Both the position numbers and the translations under genes were made by a program. A model generated the notes under the pieces. The model made no database searches. It saw only the letters and a list, made by a program, of their open reading frames with translations, and had not been told where the DNA came from. 64,000 nucleotides of DNA from Terrabacter sp. MAHUQ-38 (GTDB taxonomy: Bacteria > Actinomycetota > Actinomycetes > Actinomycetales > Dermatophilaceae), in the NCBI RefSeq assembly GCF_014518425.1, contig NZ_JACVCU010000001.1:992001-1056000 (forward strand), written 5' to 3'. Below are positions 28,968 through 35,624 of this stretch, piece after piece; within the stretch, counting starts at the first letter, position 1, and every line of letters begins with the position of its first letter.

Positions 28968-29927
28968 TCAGTCGCGGAGGTAGTCGATGTCGAAGGCCTC
29001 GAGCCGGGCGGCGTCGGCGACGAGATGGATGCCGACGACGTGTCCTTCGCGCACCGTGAACCGGAACGCGACCTTCGGCGCCCCGTGCAGCATCCACACC
29101 GCGCCGATCCCGCCGTCGAAGGCCGCCAGGCGCGCCGCCTGGGCCGAGCCGCTGAAACGTTCGGCCACCGCGAGCTGCCCCTCGAGCACGGCCGGAGAGC
29201 CCATGGCGATGGCAGCCTCGTCGGACGTCATGACGACGTCGGGGTCGAGCAGCCGGAGCAGAGCGGCGAAGTCCCCGCCGCGCGCGGCGCTGAGGAAGGC
29301 CGAGACGACGGCGCGCGGCCGTGCGCCACCCGCCTCTCCGACCCCTCCCCCGGCCCCGACTTCCGGGCCTGCCGCGCGGACGCGACGGCGGGCGCGGCTC
29401 GCGAGCTGGCGCGTGGCGGCCGGGGACCGGTCGATGATGTCCGCGATCTGCTCGAACGGCATACCGAAGAGGTCATGGAGCACGAAGGCGAGCCGCTCGG
29501 CGGGGCCGAGCGTGTCGAGGACGACGAGAAGGGCCATCCCGACGCTGTCGGCGAGCTCGACCTCGAGAGCCGGGTCGGCGGTCGGGACGGGTCGCTGCGT
29601 CGGCGCTGTGCGTGGGTCGCCGCCGGCGACGAGCCCGGCGAGCTCGGTGTCCCAGCTGTCCTCGCGTCGCGACGAGCGCGCCTGGAGCATGTCGAGGCTG
29701 ATCCGGCCCACCACCGTCGTGAGCCAGCCCCCGAGGTTGGCGATGTCGCCCGGGTCGCTGCGGCTCAGGCGCAGCCAGGCCTCCTGCACGGCGTCGTCCG
29801 CGTCCGCCGCTGAGCCGAGCACGCGGTGGGCGACCGCCCGCAGCCGCGGCCGGTGCGCCTCGAAGTCGCGGGCCAGCCAGTGCTCCCCGCTCGTGTCGTC
29901 CACCTCGTCGGGCACCTGGTCGTCCAT
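28968..29927 (-). CDS. ECF41/SigJ-type sigma factor with C-terminal SnoaL-like domain
   Basis: A 319-residue sigma factor. Region 2 (residues 15-80, AHRVLGSAADADDAVQEAWLRL in part) and region 4 (DLFGMPFEQIADIIDRSPAATRQLASRARRR in part) are clear. They are followed by a linker and an NTF2/SnoaL-like domain at about 195-319, the hallmark of ECF41, where that domain replaces an anti-sigma factor and modulates activity. ECF41 genes normally sit beside a carboxymuconolactone decarboxylase, oxidoreductase or epimerase gene; here the neighbours are VOC and PPOX genes. A copy of the ECF41 promoter motif faces this gene. ATG 29927 is chosen; GTG 29936 is possible. Confidence 0.9.
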   Translation of the reverse strand: MDDQVPDEVDDTSGEHWLARDFEAHRPRLRAVAHRVLGSAADADDAVQEAWLRLSRSDPGDIANLGGWLTTVVGRISLDMLQARSSRREDSWDTELAGLVAGGDPRTAPTQRPVPTADPALEVELADSVGMALLVVLDTLGPAERLAFVLHDLFGMPFEQIADIIDRSPAATRQLASRARRRVRAAGPEVGAGGGVGEAGGARPRAVVSAFLSAARGGDFAALLRLLDPDVVMTSDEAAIAMGSPAVLEGQLAVAERFSGSAQAARLAAFDGGIGAVWMLHGAPKVAFRFTVREGHVVGIHLVADAARLEAFDIDYLRD

Positions 29928-29930
29928 CGT

Positions 29931-29957
29931 TGTCACATCCTCGGCTCGTGGTCCGTC
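29931..29957 (+). promoter_or_regulatory. ECF41-type promoter driving the VOC/PPOX genes
   Basis: TGTCACA (29931-29937), 16 bases, CGTC (29954-29957) is an exact match to the known ECF41 consensus TGTCACA-N16-CGTC. The start site should be near 29964, about 75 bases before ATG 30038. Confidence 0.8.
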
Positions 29958-29965
29958 ATAGCACT

Positions 29966-29992
29966 GACGAGCCGGTGGCACCCGATGTGACA
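29966..29992 (-). promoter_or_regulatory. ECF41-type promoter facing the sigma factor gene
   Basis: On the minus strand TGTCACA (29992-29986), 16 bases, CGTC (29969-29966) repeats the consensus with the same spacing, 8 bases from the opposite copy. It implies autoregulation of the sigma factor, with a start near 29960. Confidence 0.8.
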
Positions 29993-30037
29993 CCGCACCG
30001 CCACCACCAAGCGCACCACCGCACAAGGAGAGAGATC

Positions 30038-30376
30038 ATGTCCGCCGTGAACACCCTCATCTACCCCGTCGCCGACCTCGAGGCCGCCAAGAGGGTCTTC
30101 ACGACCCTGCTGGGCGCGCCGCCGCACACCGACGAGCCGTACTACGTCGGCTACAACGTCGACGGCCAGGAGATCGCGCTCGACCCGAACGGCCACCGCA
30201 AGGGGCTCACCGGCGCCACGCCGTACTGGTCCGTCGACGACCTCGAGGCCAGGATCGCCTCCCTCGTCGAGGCCGGGTCGACCGTGACCCAGAAGCCCAC
30301 GGAGGTCGGCGGCGGGCGCACCGTGGCCGTCCTGGCGGACGCCGACGGCAACATGATCGGCCTGATGCAGGGATGA
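30038..30376 (+). CDS. VOC-family protein, probable ECF41 target
   Basis: A 112-residue single-domain vicinal-oxygen-chelate protein: NTLIYPVADLEAAKRVFTTLLG opens the fold and VAVLADADGNMIGLMQ closes it. Members include glyoxalases, dioxygenases and thiol or drug-binding proteins. AAGGAGAGAG precedes the ATG. The consensus ECF41 promoter about 100 bases upstream makes it the likely regulon member of the adjacent sigma factor. Its stop overlaps the next start (ATGA at 30373). Confidence 0.88.
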   Translation: MSAVNTLIYPVADLEAAKRVFTTLLGAPPHTDEPYYVGYNVDGQEIALDPNGHRKGLTGATPYWSVDDLEARIASLVEAGSTVTQKPTEVGGGRTVAVLADADGNMIGLMQG

Positions 30377-30873
30377 CGACGACCGAGGACGAATGCCGTC
30401 CGGCCGGGTCGGTGGCCCCGCCGCGGGCCACGGCCGAGCGCGTCCGCGACACGCAGGGGCTGCTGTCCCGGGAGGTCGACTGCTGGGTCGCCACGGCGGA
30501 CCCCGTGACCGGCGCCCCGCACCTCGTGCCGCTCTCGTTCGTCTGGGACGGGTCCTCCATCCTGCTCGCGACCGGGGAGCGGAGCATCGCGGGGCGGGGG
30601 CTCGCGTCAGGGACCGGCGTGCGGATCGGGCTGGGCGCGACCCGCGACGTCGTCATGGTCGACGGCTCGGTCGAGGTCATCCCGACCGGTGAGCTCGACC
30701 CCGCCGAGGCGGACCGCTTCGCCGAGCGAACGGGTTTCGACCCCCGCCAGACGGGGTCCACATACCTCTTCTTCCGGGTCGTCCCGACCCGCATCCAGGC
30801 CTGGCGCGAGGAGAACGAGCTGCGGGGCCGCGACGTCCTCGTGGCGGGCCGGTGGGTCCACGCGGAGGACTGA
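30373..30873 (+). CDS. PPOX-class flavin/F420-dependent oxidoreductase
   Basis: A 166-residue split-barrel protein of the pyridoxamine-5'-phosphate-oxidase-like superfamily. The core is visible as DCWVATADPVTGAPHLVPLSFVWDG (in part) and STYLFFRVVPTRIQAWREENEL, the latter resembling the C-terminus of Rv0121-type F420-binding proteins. The cofactor (FMN or F420) cannot be decided. Translational coupling to the VOC gene puts it in the ECF41-controlled unit. Confidence 0.82.
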   Translation: MTTTEDECRPAGSVAPPRATAERVRDTQGLLSREVDCWVATADPVTGAPHLVPLSFVWDGSSILLATGERSIAGRGLASGTGVRIGLGATRDVVMVDGSVEVIPTGELDPAEADRFAERTGFDPRQTGSTYLFFRVVPTRIQAWREENELRGRDVLVAGRWVHAED

Positions 30874-31101: not shown

Positions 31102-31115
31102 TGTAAGCGCTTACA
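31102..31115 (+). promoter_or_regulatory. LacI-family operator, perfect palindrome TGTAAGCGCTTACA
   Basis: A 14-bp perfect palindrome with the central CG of LacI-family sites lies 75 bases before the LacI gene. It is the only copy I see in the locus, so it probably controls the regulator and the genes behind it together. Confidence 0.8.
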
Positions 31116-31190
31116 GCACCCGGTGGCCCGGGTGACCAGGCGCGACGCCGCGACGCATCACTCAACGACGAGACGCGAGAGGTGGGATCC

Positions 31191-32288
31191 GTGGCGGCGG
31201 CAGGCGAGCAGGACGGCAGGCCCACGACGACCCCCTCGGCGGCACCGGCCGCCAGTGCCAACGGCACGACCATCTACTCGGTCGCCGAGCTCGCCGGTGT
31301 CTCCATCGCCACCGTGTCGCGGGTGCTGCAGGGCGCCGGCACGGTCTCGTCGAAGACGACCGAGAAGGTCCTCGCCGCCGTCGACGAGCTCAACTACGTC
31401 CCGCTCGGCGCGGCACGCAGCCTCGCCGTCCGGCAGCACGAGGCCCACGGCCTCGTCCTGCCCGAGCTCTCCGGTCCGTACTACTCCGAGCTGCTCATGG
31501 GCTTCGAGTCGCGCGCGGCCGACCTCGGCCAGAGCGTCACCCTCATGCTCACCGACGGCAAGGCCGACCTCGCCCGCGCCGTGCGCCAGCTCGCGACACG
31601 CGTCGACGGCATCGCCGTGTTCGGGTCGGCCGCGATGCCGCCGCCCGTCGCCCGCGCCCTGCACGGCCAGAAGCCCGTCGTCATGATCACCGGCGAGCCG
31701 CAGGACGGCGTCGAGTCCGTCGGTGCCGAGAACGCGCACAGCGCCGAGGAGCTCACCGAGCACGTCCTCGCCCATGGCCGCACCCGGCTCGTCTTCGTCG
31801 GTGACCCCGACATCGCGCCCGACATCCACGAACGCCACGCCGGTTTCGTCGCCGCCCACCGGGCCCGCCGGGTCCAGCCCGCCGAGCCCGTGCGCGTCCC
31901 GTTCCGCGAGGGAGAGGGCGAGGCCGTCGCCGAACGCATCCTCGCCGGTGAGATCGAGGCGGACGCGGTCGTGTGCGCCAACGACGAGCTCGCGCTCTCG
32001 ATCATGAGCCGCCTGCAGGATGCCGGTCGCGAGGTCCCCGGCGACGTCGCGGTCGTCGGCTGGGACGACGTCATGGCTTCACGCTACGTGCGTCCGGGTA
32101 TGACCACTGTGCGTCAGCCGGTCCGGGAGCTCGGGGTTCTCGCGGCCGACCGTCTTCACCACCGGGTCCAGGGCGGTGAGCCCCTCGCCGAGAGGCAGGT
32201 CCTCCCGACCCAGGTGATCATCCGCGGCTCGTGCGGTTGCCCGAGCCCGCGAAGCACCCCACCCCCGACCGAGCGGCGCACCCGATGA
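31191..32288 (+). CDS. LacI-family transcriptional regulator of the glucan locus
   Basis: A 365-residue repressor. After a 25-residue Ala/Thr-rich lead comes the helix-turn-helix (TIYSVAELAGVSIATVSRVL in part) with the hinge helix LGAARSLAVRQ; the periplasmic-binding-protein-like effector domain follows, containing VVCANDELALSIM and VGWDDVMASRYVRPG. The C-terminal tail is Pro/Arg-rich. GTG 31191 is preferred because GAGGTG is 6 bases upstream; GTG 31182 overlaps that site. Its ligand is likely an oligosaccharide released by the exported glucanase. Confidence 0.85.
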   Translation: MAAAGEQDGRPTTTPSAAPAASANGTTIYSVAELAGVSIATVSRVLQGAGTVSSKTTEKVLAAVDELNYVPLGAARSLAVRQHEAHGLVLPELSGPYYSELLMGFESRAADLGQSVTLMLTDGKADLARAVRQLATRVDGIAVFGSAAMPPPVARALHGQKPVVMITGEPQDGVESVGAENAHSAEELTEHVLAHGRTRLVFVGDPDIAPDIHERHAGFVAAHRARRVQPAEPVRVPFREGEGEAVAERILAGEIEADAVVCANDELALSIMSRLQDAGREVPGDVAVVGWDDVMASRYVRPGMTTVRQPVRELGVLAADRLHHRVQGGEPLAERQVLPTQVIIRGSCGCPSPRSTPPPTERRTR

Positions 32289-32420: not shown

Positions 32421-33707
32421 ATGAGACGCACCACAGCCATCACCGTCGCGTGCATGACGGCCGCGGCCCTGACCGTGACCGCCTGCGGTCGTGGCCCCGA
32501 GGGCGGCGGCGGGACCGCCGGCCAGACCGGCGCCGCGGTCGACACCGGCAAGGCCACCGGAGAGATCACCGTCTGGGCGATGGGCGCCGAGGGGGACAAC
32601 CTGCCCAAGCTGACGGCGGACTTCGAGTCCGCGAACCCCGGCGTCAAGGTCAAGGTGACCGCCATCCCGTGGGATGCCGCGCACGACAAGTTCACGACCG
32701 CCATCACGGCTGGCAAGACGCCCGACGTGGCCATGGTCGGCACGACCTGGATGGGTGAGTTCGCCAGCAGCGACGCCATCGACCCGACCCCCGCCCAGAT
32801 CGACAAGTCCGCCTTCTTCGAGGGCGCGCAGAAGACCACCGAGGTGAACGGCACGTCCTACGGCATCCCGTGGTACGTCGAGACCCGCGTCCTCTTCTAC
32901 CGCACCGACCTCGCCAAGAAGGCCGGCTTCGACACCGCACCCACAGACTGGCAGGGCCTCAAGGACATGGCCAAGGCCATGCAGACCAAGGCCGGCGCCA
33001 AGTGGGGCATCGGCCTGCAGGCCGGCGGTGAGGGCTCGTGGCAGACCCTCATGCCGTTCGCCTGGTCCGACGGCGCCGACCTCACGAAGGACGGCGGCAA
33101 GGCGTACAACTTCGACAGTCCGCAGATCCTCAAGGCGGCGAAGTACTACCAGTCGTTCTTCACCGACGGCATCTCCAACAAGGCTGCCCCCGCCACCCCG
33201 ACGACCGAGCCCGACTTCGCCAAGGGCACCGTGCCGATGTTCATCTCCGGCCCGTGGATGATGTCGGCGGTCGAGAAGGTCGGCGGGCCCGGCTTCAAGG
33301 ACAAGTACGACGTCGCGCCGATCCCCGCCGGTACGACCGGCTCGTCGTCCTTCGTCGGCGGCTCGAACTTCGTCGTCTTCAAGAACACGAAGAACCGCGA
33401 CACGGCCTGGAAGTTCGTGCAGTGGCTCGCCGACCCCAAGGTCCAGGCGAAGTGGTACACCATCTCGACCGACCTGCCCTCGGTCAAGAGCGCCTGGCAG
33501 GACCCGGCCCTCGCGTCCGACAAGAAGCTCGCCGTCTTCGGCAAGCAGCTCGAGACCGCCAAGGCACCGCCGTCGTTCCCGACGTGGGAGCAGGCGGTCA
33601 AGGCTCTCGACACCGAGATGGAGAAGGTGACGAAGACCGGAGCCGACCCGGCGGCGGCCCTCAAGGCGGCGCAGCAGCAGGCCGACTCCATCGGGACGGG
33701 TCAGTGA
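32421..33707 (+). CDS. CUT1 ABC transporter sugar-binding lipoprotein (glucan locus)
   Basis: A 428-residue extracytoplasmic binding protein. The signal peptide ends in a lipobox (LTVTAC, Cys22), followed by a Gly-rich linker; the family-1 solute-binding fold begins at ITVWAMGAEGDNLPKL. The hinge pattern GIPWYVETRVLFYRTDLAKKAG (in part) is usual for oligosaccharide binders. It lies 132 bases after LacI with its own AG-rich ribosome site. In this context it probably binds gluco-oligosaccharides. Confidence 0.92.
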   Translation: MRRTTAITVACMTAAALTVTACGRGPEGGGGTAGQTGAAVDTGKATGEITVWAMGAEGDNLPKLTADFESANPGVKVKVTAIPWDAAHDKFTTAITAGKTPDVAMVGTTWMGEFASSDAIDPTPAQIDKSAFFEGAQKTTEVNGTSYGIPWYVETRVLFYRTDLAKKAGFDTAPTDWQGLKDMAKAMQTKAGAKWGIGLQAGGEGSWQTLMPFAWSDGADLTKDGGKAYNFDSPQILKAAKYYQSFFTDGISNKAAPATPTTEPDFAKGTVPMFISGPWMMSAVEKVGGPGFKDKYDVAPIPAGTTGSSSFVGGSNFVVFKNTKNRDTAWKFVQWLADPKVQAKWYTISTDLPSVKSAWQDPALASDKKLAVFGKQLETAKAPPSFPTWEQAVKALDTEMEKVTKTGADPAAALKAAQQQADSIGTGQ

Positions 33708-33711
33708 TCCC

Positions 33712-34719
33712 ATGACCGCCCAGCCCGGCACGAGCGGGTCCACCGGACCCGTGACGCCACCTGCGGCGACGCCTCCGGGGCGGCCTGACGACAGGTCGCC
33801 CCGCGGGGCCGACACCGGAGGGTCCCGCAGGCCGGCCGGCTCGTCCGCCCTGCGGGAGGGGCGGGCGGCATGGATCCTCGCGATCCCCTTCTGCCTGCTC
33901 TTCCTCGCGTTCACCGCCTGGCCCGTGGTCCAGTCGCTCTTCATGAGCATCACGGACACGAGGTCCCGTGACCTGCGAAAGCCCTTCTCCGTCAACATCA
34001 TCGGCCTCGACAACTTCACGAAGGCGTTGTCCGACCCGCTCTTCCGGAAGGCCGCCGCCAACACCGCCTACTTCGTCCTCGTCGGGATGCCGTTGACCCT
34101 GGTCATGGCGCTCGCCGCGGCCGTCGCGCTGGACAAGGGGATCACCCGCTTCCGCGCGGCCTTCCGGCTCGGCTTCTACCTGCCGGTCATCACCTCGATC
34201 GTCGCCGTCGCCGTCGTGTGGCGCTTCCTCCTGCAGGACCCCGGTGGTCTCATCAACACGGCGCTCGGATGGGTCGGCATCACCGGCCCCAACTGGCTCG
34301 GTGACCCCAAGTGGTCGATGCCGTCGATGATCCTCATGGCGGCCTGGCGCAACTTCGGCACGGCGATGATCATCTTCCTCGCCGGGCTGCAGGCCGTGCC
34401 CGCCGAGCTGCACGAGGCGGCCGCCATCGACGGCGCCGGCGCGTGGAAGCGGTTCCGCTACGTCACGATGCCCCTGCTGCGTCCGACGCTGCTGTTCGTC
34501 ATGGTCACGACCGCCATCGGCTATCTCCAGTTCTTCGAGGAGCCGTTCGTCATGACGAAGGGCGGGCCCCTCAACAGCACGATCTCGCTGTCCTACTACA
34601 CGTACCAGCAGTTCGGCTTCGGCAACTACGCGCTGGCGTCGGCGATGAGCTACCTGATCTTCGTGGTCATCGCCGTCGTCACGGCCATCCAGTTCCGGCT
34701 GCTGCGAGAGAGGACCTGA
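33712..34719 (+). CDS. CUT1 ABC transporter permease 1 (MalF-like)
   Basis: A 335-residue membrane protein with six helices after a 45-residue Pro/Gly-rich cytoplasmic lead. The EAA loop reads HEAAAIDGAGAWKRFRYVTMPLLRP (in part: EAAAIDGAGAWKRF), the site that docks the ATPase. It begins 4 bases after the binding-protein stop. No ATPase gene is in the locus. Confidence 0.92.
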   Translation: MTAQPGTSGSTGPVTPPAATPPGRPDDRSPRGADTGGSRRPAGSSALREGRAAWILAIPFCLLFLAFTAWPVVQSLFMSITDTRSRDLRKPFSVNIIGLDNFTKALSDPLFRKAAANTAYFVLVGMPLTLVMALAAAVALDKGITRFRAAFRLGFYLPVITSIVAVAVVWRFLLQDPGGLINTALGWVGITGPNWLGDPKWSMPSMILMAAWRNFGTAMIIFLAGLQAVPAELHEAAAIDGAGAWKRFRYVTMPLLRPTLLFVMVTTAIGYLQFFEEPFVMTKGGPLNSTISLSYYTYQQFGFGNYALASAMSYLIFVVIAVVTAIQFRLLRERT

Positions 34720-34721
34720 TC

Positions 34722-35624
34722 ATGGCCGTCGACACCGCATCACGGCCGTCCGGTTCCGCGCCTGCTCGCGCCCGGACGAGGAAGCCGCGCTCCGGCATGG
34801 TCGGGTCGAGCCAGGCCGGCCGCTGGTGGCTCTACGCCATCCTCGTCGTGGCGTTCATCGCCGTCGTCGCACCGTTCGTCTGGATGGTCCTCGGCAGCTT
34901 CAAGAGCGAGGGCGAGCTGCGGCAGGTGCCGCCGACGTGGCTGCCCGAGAGCGCCTCGCTCGACAACTACACGCAGCTGTTCGACAAGCTGAGCTTCGGC
35001 CAGTTCTTCACCAACTCGATCATCGTCGCGGTCGTCGTGACGGCCGGCAACCTGGTCTTCTGCTCGATGCTCGGGTACGCCCTGGCCATGCTCGACTTCA
35101 AGGGCAAGAAGCTCATCTTCACCGCCGTCATGACGACGCTCATGATCCCCGGCGTCGTGACGTTCGTGCCGCTCTTCGTGCTCGTCGCGAACGCCGGCCT
35201 CATCGACACGCTGCCCGGCCTGTTCCTGCCCTTCCTCGTCAGCCCGTTCGGCGTCTTCCTCATGCGCCAGTTCATCCTCGGCCTGCCGAAGGACCTGCTC
35301 GACGCAGGCCGCGTGGACGGAGCGGGGGAGCTGCGGATCTTCTGGCGGATCATCCTGCCGCTCTGCGGTCCCGCTCTCGCGACGCTCGGCATCCTGACCT
35401 TCCTCGGCAGCTGGAACAACTTCCTGTGGCCGCTCGTCGTGGCCCAGTCCGAGGACAGGTACACCCTCCCGGTGGCCCTCGCCCTCTACTCGACCGGCCA
35501 GAACAGCACGAACTACGGGCTGCTCCTCGCCGGCGCCACCGTCGTCATCGTCCCGATCCTCGTCGTCTTCCTCGTCTTCCAGAAGCGCTTCATCGAGGGC
35601 ATCGCGACCACCGGCCTCAAGTAA
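34722..35624 (+). CDS. CUT1 ABC transporter permease 2 (MalG-like)
   Basis: A 300-residue six-helix permease with an Arg-rich N-terminus. The EAA-type loop reads DAGRVDGAGELRIFWRIILP. ATG 34722 lies 2 bases after the permease 1 stop; the longer open frame is shadow of that gene. It forms the membrane channel with permease 1. Confidence 0.92.
   Translation: MAVDTASRPSGSAPARARTRKPRSGMVGSSQAGRWWLYAILVVAFIAVVAPFVWMVLGSFKSEGELRQVPPTWLPESASLDNYTQLFDKLSFGQFFTNSIIVAVVVTAGNLVFCSMLGYALAMLDFKGKKLIFTAVMTTLMIPGVVTFVPLFVLVANAGLIDTLPGLFLPFLVSPFGVFLMRQFILGLPKDLLDAGRVDGAGELRIFWRIILPLCGPALATLGILTFLGSWNNFLWPLVVAQSEDRYTLPVALALYSTGQNSTNYGLLLAGATVVIVPILVVFLVFQKRFIEGIATTGLK

Follow-up and report, generated by a model that had tools for sequence, protein, structure and literature searches.

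The locus and its genes

The site examined here occupies the space between an ECF sigma factor gene and two divergently oriented enzyme-like genes, near the middle of a 64-kb window (the whole stretch of Terrabacter DNA that was analysed). The sigma factor, 319 amino acids long and matching Pfam PF04542 and PF08281, is encoded on the minus strand at 28968..29927, its ATG at 29927 being preceded by a Shine-Dalgarno sequence, GAGGA, at 29942-29938. On the plus strand lie a VOC/glyoxalase-family protein of 112 amino acids (30038..30376; PF00903, E 2.1e-8), with the Shine-Dalgarno sequence AAGGAG at 30025-30030, and a PPOX-class (pyridoxamine 5'-phosphate oxidase-like) protein of 166 amino acids (30373..30873; PF01243, E 4.4e-9). 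Since the PPOX ATG at 30373 shares a four-base overlap with the VOC stop codon, the two genes probably form a single operon. Among the eight other loci of the genus, as stored, a VOC homologue is present in all eight and a PPOX homologue in five. The family names invite the guess that the products handle redox or reactive metabolites.

Further along the window, a perfect palindrome, GTAAGCGCTTAC, at 31103-31114 (0.03 expected with up to one mismatch allowed) precedes a LacI-like ORF at 31182-32288 and ORFs at 32421-35624 that resemble a sugar ABC transporter. This palindrome is likely to be a LacI-family operator.

A mirror-image pair of promoter motifs

Two exact copies of TGTCACA-N16-CGTC face each other between the sigma gene and the VOC gene. 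The enzyme-directed arm, at 29931..29957 on the plus strand, consists of the -35 element TGTCACA (29931-29937), 16 intervening bases and the -10 element CGTC (29954-29957); the sigma-directed arm, at 29966..29992 on the minus strand, has its -35 at 29992-29986 and its -10 at 29969-29966, again with 16 bases between. The inner gap of 8 bp (29958..29965), which would be expected to fall within the melted region of both promoters, is flanked in most relatives as CGTCA-N6-TGACG, and the whole site, 29931-29992, is an imperfect palindrome of 62 bp. The mirror reaches into the sigma gene's translation signals: read on the minus strand, the Shine-Dalgarno sequence at 29942-29938 is followed by TGTGACA, the complement of the enzyme arm's -35, and then by the ATG at 29927.

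The first-pass annotation had described one exact copy of the ECF41 promoter consensus on each strand, 8 bases apart, one directed at the VOC/PPOX pair and the other at the sigma gene. A motif scan bears this out in full, the plus-strand arm leading to the VOC ATG at 30038 and the minus-strand arm to the sigma ATG at 29927, with no further exact match in the 64-kb window. In 100 dinucleotide shuffles exact matches averaged 0.03 per window and two never occurred together, which rules out chance as the origin of the pair. Matches with up to two mismatches, by comparison, are to be regarded as noise, because 15 were seen in the window where 27.8 were expected.

The same annotation had asked whether these two copies were the sole hits in the genome. 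They are not: the assembly (5.16 Mb, 18 contigs) holds four exact matches, and none to a backwards control motif. The third (L001, G000:C1:470153-470179) lies 39 bp before an ORF resembling an NAD-epimerase, downstream of which is a sigma gene (L005) that scores over the SigX4 cut-off. The fourth (L004, G000:C12:231459-231485) lies between GNAT-like and MsrA-like ORFs and has C, not G, as the ninth base after CGTC; it may be a chance match or an extra target. The labels epimerase-like, GNAT-like and MsrA-like come from reading the translations, with no family search.

Placement of the sigma factor

The window sigma factor has the domain composition of ECF41, namely sigma-2 and sigma-4 regions only, followed by a C-terminal extension of NTF2/SnoaL type, and the ECF41 promoter motif is present both at its own gene and at its neighbour. 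The Pfam model for the extension, PF12680 (SnoaL_2), matches below its cut-off (E 0.0028), as part of a set in which 46 of 58 alignment members, the window protein included, reach E <= 0.01. An AlphaFold model (mean pLDDT 86, pTM 0.47) finds its best fold matches in SigJ (5xe7) and SigG1 (7qh5), with NTF2-like folds lower in the list. These representatives of the SigJ-type and ECF56 SigG1-type factors with a fused SnoaL domain are the nearest solved structures by sequence as well as by fold, the likeness holding domain by domain; over the whole chain TM-scores are only about 0.3, reflecting a domain arrangement that is either different or uncertain.

The ECF41 C-terminal extension includes the motif DGGG. 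This motif is absent from the window sigma factor, as are NPDKL, another motif of that extension (PMC7730460), and WLPEP, which the available text of Wecke 2012 (PMC3426412) gives as the signature of the ECF41 group. Paralogues in the same genome carry WLPEP (L006 and L007) or WFPEP (L005); DGGG and NPDKL are both present in L005 and L007 and neither is found in L006. Against curated models the window protein scores 205.7 bits for SigJ (cut-off 271) and 178.4 bits for SigX4 (cut-off 323.25). The earlier label 'ECF41' is consequently too strong, given the missing canonical motifs and scores under both cut-offs, and the protein is better described as belonging to an ECF41-like branch without WLPEP. 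In a phylogenetic tree the paralogues L005-L007 are separated from all other rows by a branch of length 1.0 (support 100/99), the other side of this split comprising 68 rows with the mirror, 11 without a recognised mirror and the paralogue L008; sigma factors from back-to-back promoter pairs, described below, were not part of the tree.

The genome encodes five full-length SigX4-type sigma factors, one of them over the cut-off. Several may read one consensus, which raises the question of crosstalk.

Conservation of the 8-bp geometry

The arrangement was sought in one genome per species as two facing arms with the inner gap left free between 0 and 30 bp. At least 118 pairs were obtained, and among the 118 listed the gap is 8 bp in 113, 9 in three, 11 in one and 12 in one. 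Its near-invariant occurrence in many species led us to drop the notion of a layout peculiar to the window locus. Among the matches listed, 113 of the 118 pairs lie next to a gene for a homologue of the window sigma factor (E <= 1e-10). Two of the five exceptions, L026 and L059, are truncated because the stored sequence ends there; at L064 the neighbouring match is weak and partial, at L043 the match is 1.3 kb distant, and at L044 there is none. The listed matches come from Actinomycetota, Pseudomonadota, Acidobacteriota, Chloroflexota, Verrucomicrobiota, Nitrospirota, Myxococcota and a candidate division, several being metagenome bins. Adding the window locus, L017 and L018 to 113 of the 118 listed pairs gave 116 sites with assigned orientation, some loci standing under several labels (L017/L148/L052, L018/L145, L123/L147 and L096/L152).

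Kinship might account for this constancy. Under such a reading the two arms would be ordinary divergent promoters, both real, with an inherited, functionless overlap and a gap kept constant by common descent or by movement between phyla; the adjoining sigma genes are indeed homologous, and near-identical copies of the mirror locus occur within genera such as Rhizobium and Kribbella among the matches listed. We nevertheless consider it unlikely. When the 105 of 116 sigma proteins that were long enough (240 amino acids) were clustered, the gap of 8 was kept, among the matches listed, in 33 of 35 clusters at 60% identity, in 11 of 11 at 50% and in four of five at 45%, the fifth having 12. Across 33 cluster representatives from these matches the six inner gap bases show a pairwise identity of 0.290, close to the 0.273 expected from composition. 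The bases of the gap have thus turned over while its length was retained, so that ancestry alone is unlikely to explain the constant spacing.

A second sample was chosen by protein rather than by promoter: 68 of 186 genomes from the same family encode a homologue of the sigma factor (E <= 1e-40), and the best 30 of the 68 were taken as loci. In the search of these loci each arm could have up to two mismatches, the spacer could be 15-17 and the gap 0-40. A facing pair is present in 19 of the 30, with a gap of 8 in 17 and 9 in two and with spacers of 16 throughout, in a sample whose loci are not independent since nine of the 30 come from one genus. Shuffled controls gave pairs in 2 of 620 (31 regions x 20). 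By the same rules no recognisable pair was found in the remaining 11 loci or at the paralogue L008. On the mirror-bearing side of the tree, presence of the mirror changes seven times, as compared with a shuffled mean of 14.0, and five of these changes are forced by well-supported branches; the mirror has therefore been lost, or has ceased to be recognisable, more than once. As a separate observation, L154, L156, L159, L162 and L164 have variant arms, GGTCACA or CGTCACA, at a gap still of 8-9 bp, and the first three also have a variant -10 (GGTC/TGTC), which suggests sub-branches with shifted promoter specificity.

Within the genus, all eight other sampled genomes have the sigma orthologue and the pair at a gap of 8 bp. 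Their sigma-directed arm is exact in all eight, and the enzyme-directed arm is exact in one and a single base off (CGTCACA) in seven. This near-identity of both arms, together with their exactness in the window, makes it quite unlikely that in the Terrabacter genome just one arm is active and the other a relic or weak decoy, a state for which relatives with one recognisable arm, such as L151, L157 and L158, might be taken as precedent.

Ten plasmid loci, chosen for variety from 159 records with a match, include four with a gap of 8 (all Rhizobiaceae), one degenerate pair with a gap of 10, one doubtful pair with a gap of 29 and four with none. Genome by genome the exact facing pair is rare: in an even sample by phylum 2 of 396 genomes have it (gaps 8 and 11), in a class sample 4 of 394 (all 8), the Terrabacter genome being counted in each, and among relatives 3 of 58.

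Promoter layout and type of sigma factor

The even samples also contain back-to-back pairs, with the -35 elements inside, in 3 of 396 genomes by phylum and 9 of 394 by class; set beside the counts for facing pairs, these give no support to the face-to-face layout being the commoner divergent one. The gaps of the twelve back-to-back pairs vary, from 6 (five, in one genus) through 11, 16, 20 and 23 to 24 (three), as opposed to the near-fixed 8 at facing pairs, and this too counts against two ordinary divergent promoters as the explanation of the mirror.

The layouts differ equally in their sigma factors. The linker motif WxPEP is present in all twelve sigma factors at back-to-back pairs. At face-to-face pairs, among the matches listed, WLPEP occurs in just one of 105 full-length sigma factors (L035) and in none of the 11 shorter ones, and both DGGG followed by R/K/H and NPDKL/NPEKL score 0 of 105. 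Four further face-to-face loci from the even samples (L171 and L192-L194) likewise lack WLPEP, DGGG and NPDKL. The single exception, L035, is also unusual in its gap, which is 9 and not 8. Whole-sequence similarity fits less neatly: for six of the twelve back-to-back sigma factors (L183-L188, all from one genus) the highest score is with the WLPEP-less paralogue L008, and yet these six contain all three motifs; a gap of 6 is repeated in five of the six genomes of this genus that have a back-to-back pair. Promoter layout may thus serve as a sequence-level criterion for dividing ECF41-like sigma factors into two groups.

This division bears on which factor reads the site. The paralogues share the consensus and therefore another of them could do so, for instance the canonical ECF41 paralogue beside the epimerase-like gene, which has the same exact motif before it; the several SigX4-type factors of the genome widen the choice. 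That the face-to-face pair tracks the WLPEP-less branch so closely speaks for the adjacent sigma factor instead, and renders it distinctly improbable that the site is read mainly by another.

Targets of the enzyme arm

The proteins encoded next to the enzyme-directed arm are of several types. Partner ORFs were taken as the longest beside the 116 oriented sites, giving 111 (five more were too short), of which 12 that were cut off or had a doubtful start were omitted; the resulting 99 proteins represent 98 of 110 locus ORFs plus one out-of-frame row for the window. Among these, for the matches listed, are 42 CMD, 21 NAD-epimerase/NmrA, seven glyoxalase and four PNPOx proteins. Counting duplicates and the window locus, VOC homologues are present in 25 and PPOX homologues in 19 of the stored loci L017-L167, and the two occur together at the window locus, at five of the eight other genus loci and at two Amorphoplanes loci. 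VOC and PPOX proteins thus appear to be a recurrent minority type of target.

The first-pass annotation had seen in the VOC and PPOX pair a replacement for the usual carboxymuconolactone decarboxylase, oxidoreductase or epimerase. VOC is not a COE; Pyridox_oxidase already figures among the 'oxidoreductases' in the available text of the founding ECF41 paper (Wecke 2012, PMC3426412), and the pair recurs elsewhere.

Predicted transcription starts

Start sites can be predicted from canonical ECF41 promoters. In the accessible text on S. meliloti, the mapped SMb20029-rpoE9 start is placed 9 nt downstream of the motif (PMC3616915), and the SMb20029 promoter as printed (PMC6180224) ends CGTC-ATGGTGTC-G, a sequence located at the corresponding place in the pSymB record; we infer that its last printed base is +1, in agreement with the 9 nt. 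For R. sphaeroides and B. licheniformis, the available text of Wecke 2012 (PMC3426412) reports a mapped +1 at G with leaders of 22 and 23 nt, and lists 31 and 32 in its Table 5. The difference of 9 would fit the same rule if the distances in that table were measured from the last base of the -10 element.

Taking +1 as the ninth base after CGTC, the predicted start of the enzyme transcript is the G at 29966 on the plus strand, with a leader of 72 nt to the ATG at 30038, and that of the sigma transcript the G at 29957 on the minus strand, with a leader of 30 nt to the ATG at 29927. The start region of 29960-29964 proposed in the first pass is therefore probably off. Because the rule places +1 at the ninth base and the gap is 8 (CGTC-N8-GACG), each predicted start is the terminal base pair of the opposing -10, and the reciprocal overlap of -10 and start (the Warman criterion) is present in the sequence, given that rule. 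ECF open complexes melt from about -11 to +2. If this applies here, the two bubbles, at 29955-29967 and 29956-29968, would nearly coincide.

The start rule was compared with the profile of the 110 of 116 oriented sites that have a gap of 8 and full flanks. Among these listed matches, at positions left free in the search, a pyrimidine precedes the predicted +1 in 110 of 110 cases in the sigma direction and in 108 of 110 in the enzyme direction (33/33 and 32/33 after clustering). The conserved A that follows CGTC in one direction and the conserved T that precedes +1 in the other belong, through the symmetry of the site, to a single base pair, so that this pyrimidine is indistinguishable from an extended -10, CGTCA. 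Exact sites outside exact pairs provide a less clear control. They number 25 and have G as the ninth base in 15, eight of which are one-mismatch mirrors (all G); of the 17 sites left when the mirrors are excluded, 11 have a purine there, which is G in seven. At the five loci with a gap of 9, 11 or 12 among the matches listed, the G of the opposing GACG is not at the ninth base.

Sigma leaders, measured from the predicted +1 to the first possible start codon, are 26-30 nt in 89 of the 111 relatives with a gap of 8 among the matches listed. On the sigma side, 23 of 33 cluster representatives have a Shine-Dalgarno-like run inside the mirror, and 2 of 33 have one at the corresponding position on the enzyme side (matches listed). 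As at the window locus, the enzyme arm's -35 thus often separates the sigma gene's Shine-Dalgarno sequence from its start codon.

A palindrome of 62 bp, albeit imperfect, could in principle be the operator of a dimeric repressor or encode an RNA hairpin instead of comprising two promoters. We rejected this as highly improbable, since the half-site is a documented promoter for the ECF41 family and also occurs singly; moreover, with +1 placed according to the mapped starts, neither transcript holds both halves.

Relationship to known systems

Two components of this arrangement are already known. The first is the motif before both genes of divergent loci: the available text of Wecke 2012 (PMC3426412) counts 55 divergent <ECF< >COE> loci, with the motif before 36 ECF and 41 COE genes and often at both genes of a locus. 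Those loci share with the window locus both TGTCACA-N16-CGTC and the SnoaL-type extension; no description of the geometry, the overlap or a shared start region was found in that text. The second is the bidirectional promoter with reciprocal overlap of -10 and start, as described for sigma-70 in the accessible portions of Warman 2026 (PMC12825309) and Middlemiss 2023 (PMC10268837). There, divergent starts lie 7-25 bp apart, most commonly 18 with 10 and 23 also represented, and polymerase binds either way, one binding blocking the other. According to PMC12825309, these promoters fire too seldom at basal level to compete, a strongly activated direction can repress its opposite, and such interference lowers noise; the elements are near-symmetric housekeeping ones whose control is hardly understood.

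The start distance of 9 bp predicted here fits best beside the 10-bp class. Unlike the sigma-70 cases, which concern the symmetry of a shared housekeeping -10 element (PMC12825309, PMC10268837), the window site would employ an alternative ECF sigma factor, has two full -35 elements and a gap kept across phyla, and has the sigma factor itself as one product. The S. meliloti RpoE9/SMb20029 system, as far as the accessible text goes (PMC6180224, PMC3616915), has the same motif with its start 9 nt after CGTC and a CMD as its target, and differs in that target and sigma gene are one likely operon with a single start and in having no mirror. A fixed face-to-face geometry for an ECF sigma factor was not found described in the literature searched, subscription papers, including the 2021 ECF reclassification, being outside its scope. 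We read the fixed face-to-face geometry at an ECF sigma gene as an ECF counterpart of the known bidirectional promoters.

A probable single promoter read in two directions

The explanation that we favour, and hold to be probable, is that the 62 bp at 29931-29992 act as a single bidirectional promoter with mirror symmetry, recognised by the ECF sigma factor encoded beside it. Holoenzyme would bind in either of two opposite orientations, each with its own -35 and -10. With the predicted +1 G of each direction lying in the last base pair of the opposing -10, the stretch of about a dozen base pairs melted in one open complex would be almost the same as that melted in the other, so binding in one orientation would exclude the other and an occupied orientation would shut the opposite one. 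The two RNAs would start 9 bp apart and run outward without overlapping, each crossing the other's promoter, as had been proposed earlier and as the facing arms imply. Once the C-terminal SnoaL-like domain permits the sigma factor to act, presumably on a signal, its own gene and the VOC-PPOX operon would be expected to rise together, initiation events being divided between the two.

The autoregulation foreseen in the first-pass annotation remains well founded as a prediction, an arm of the ECF41 consensus being directed at the sigma gene on the minus strand. The switch-like competition that it also foresaw does not follow. A toggle was rejected: as the same sigma factor would serve both directions, we read the arrangement as positive autoregulation with mutually exclusive binding.

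More broadly, the chances seem to us about even that an ECF branch spread over several phyla maintains a reciprocally nested promoter in which one bubble is read both ways, the ratio of sigma factor to enzyme being set by choice of orientation and not by two separate promoters. Both sides of the site carry the full consensus, its 8-bp centre hardly varies, and the factor expected to read it is itself one of the two products. It would thus offer a minimal natural setting for measuring how orientation is chosen, how the promoters exclude each other and how autoregulation works, with purified parts.
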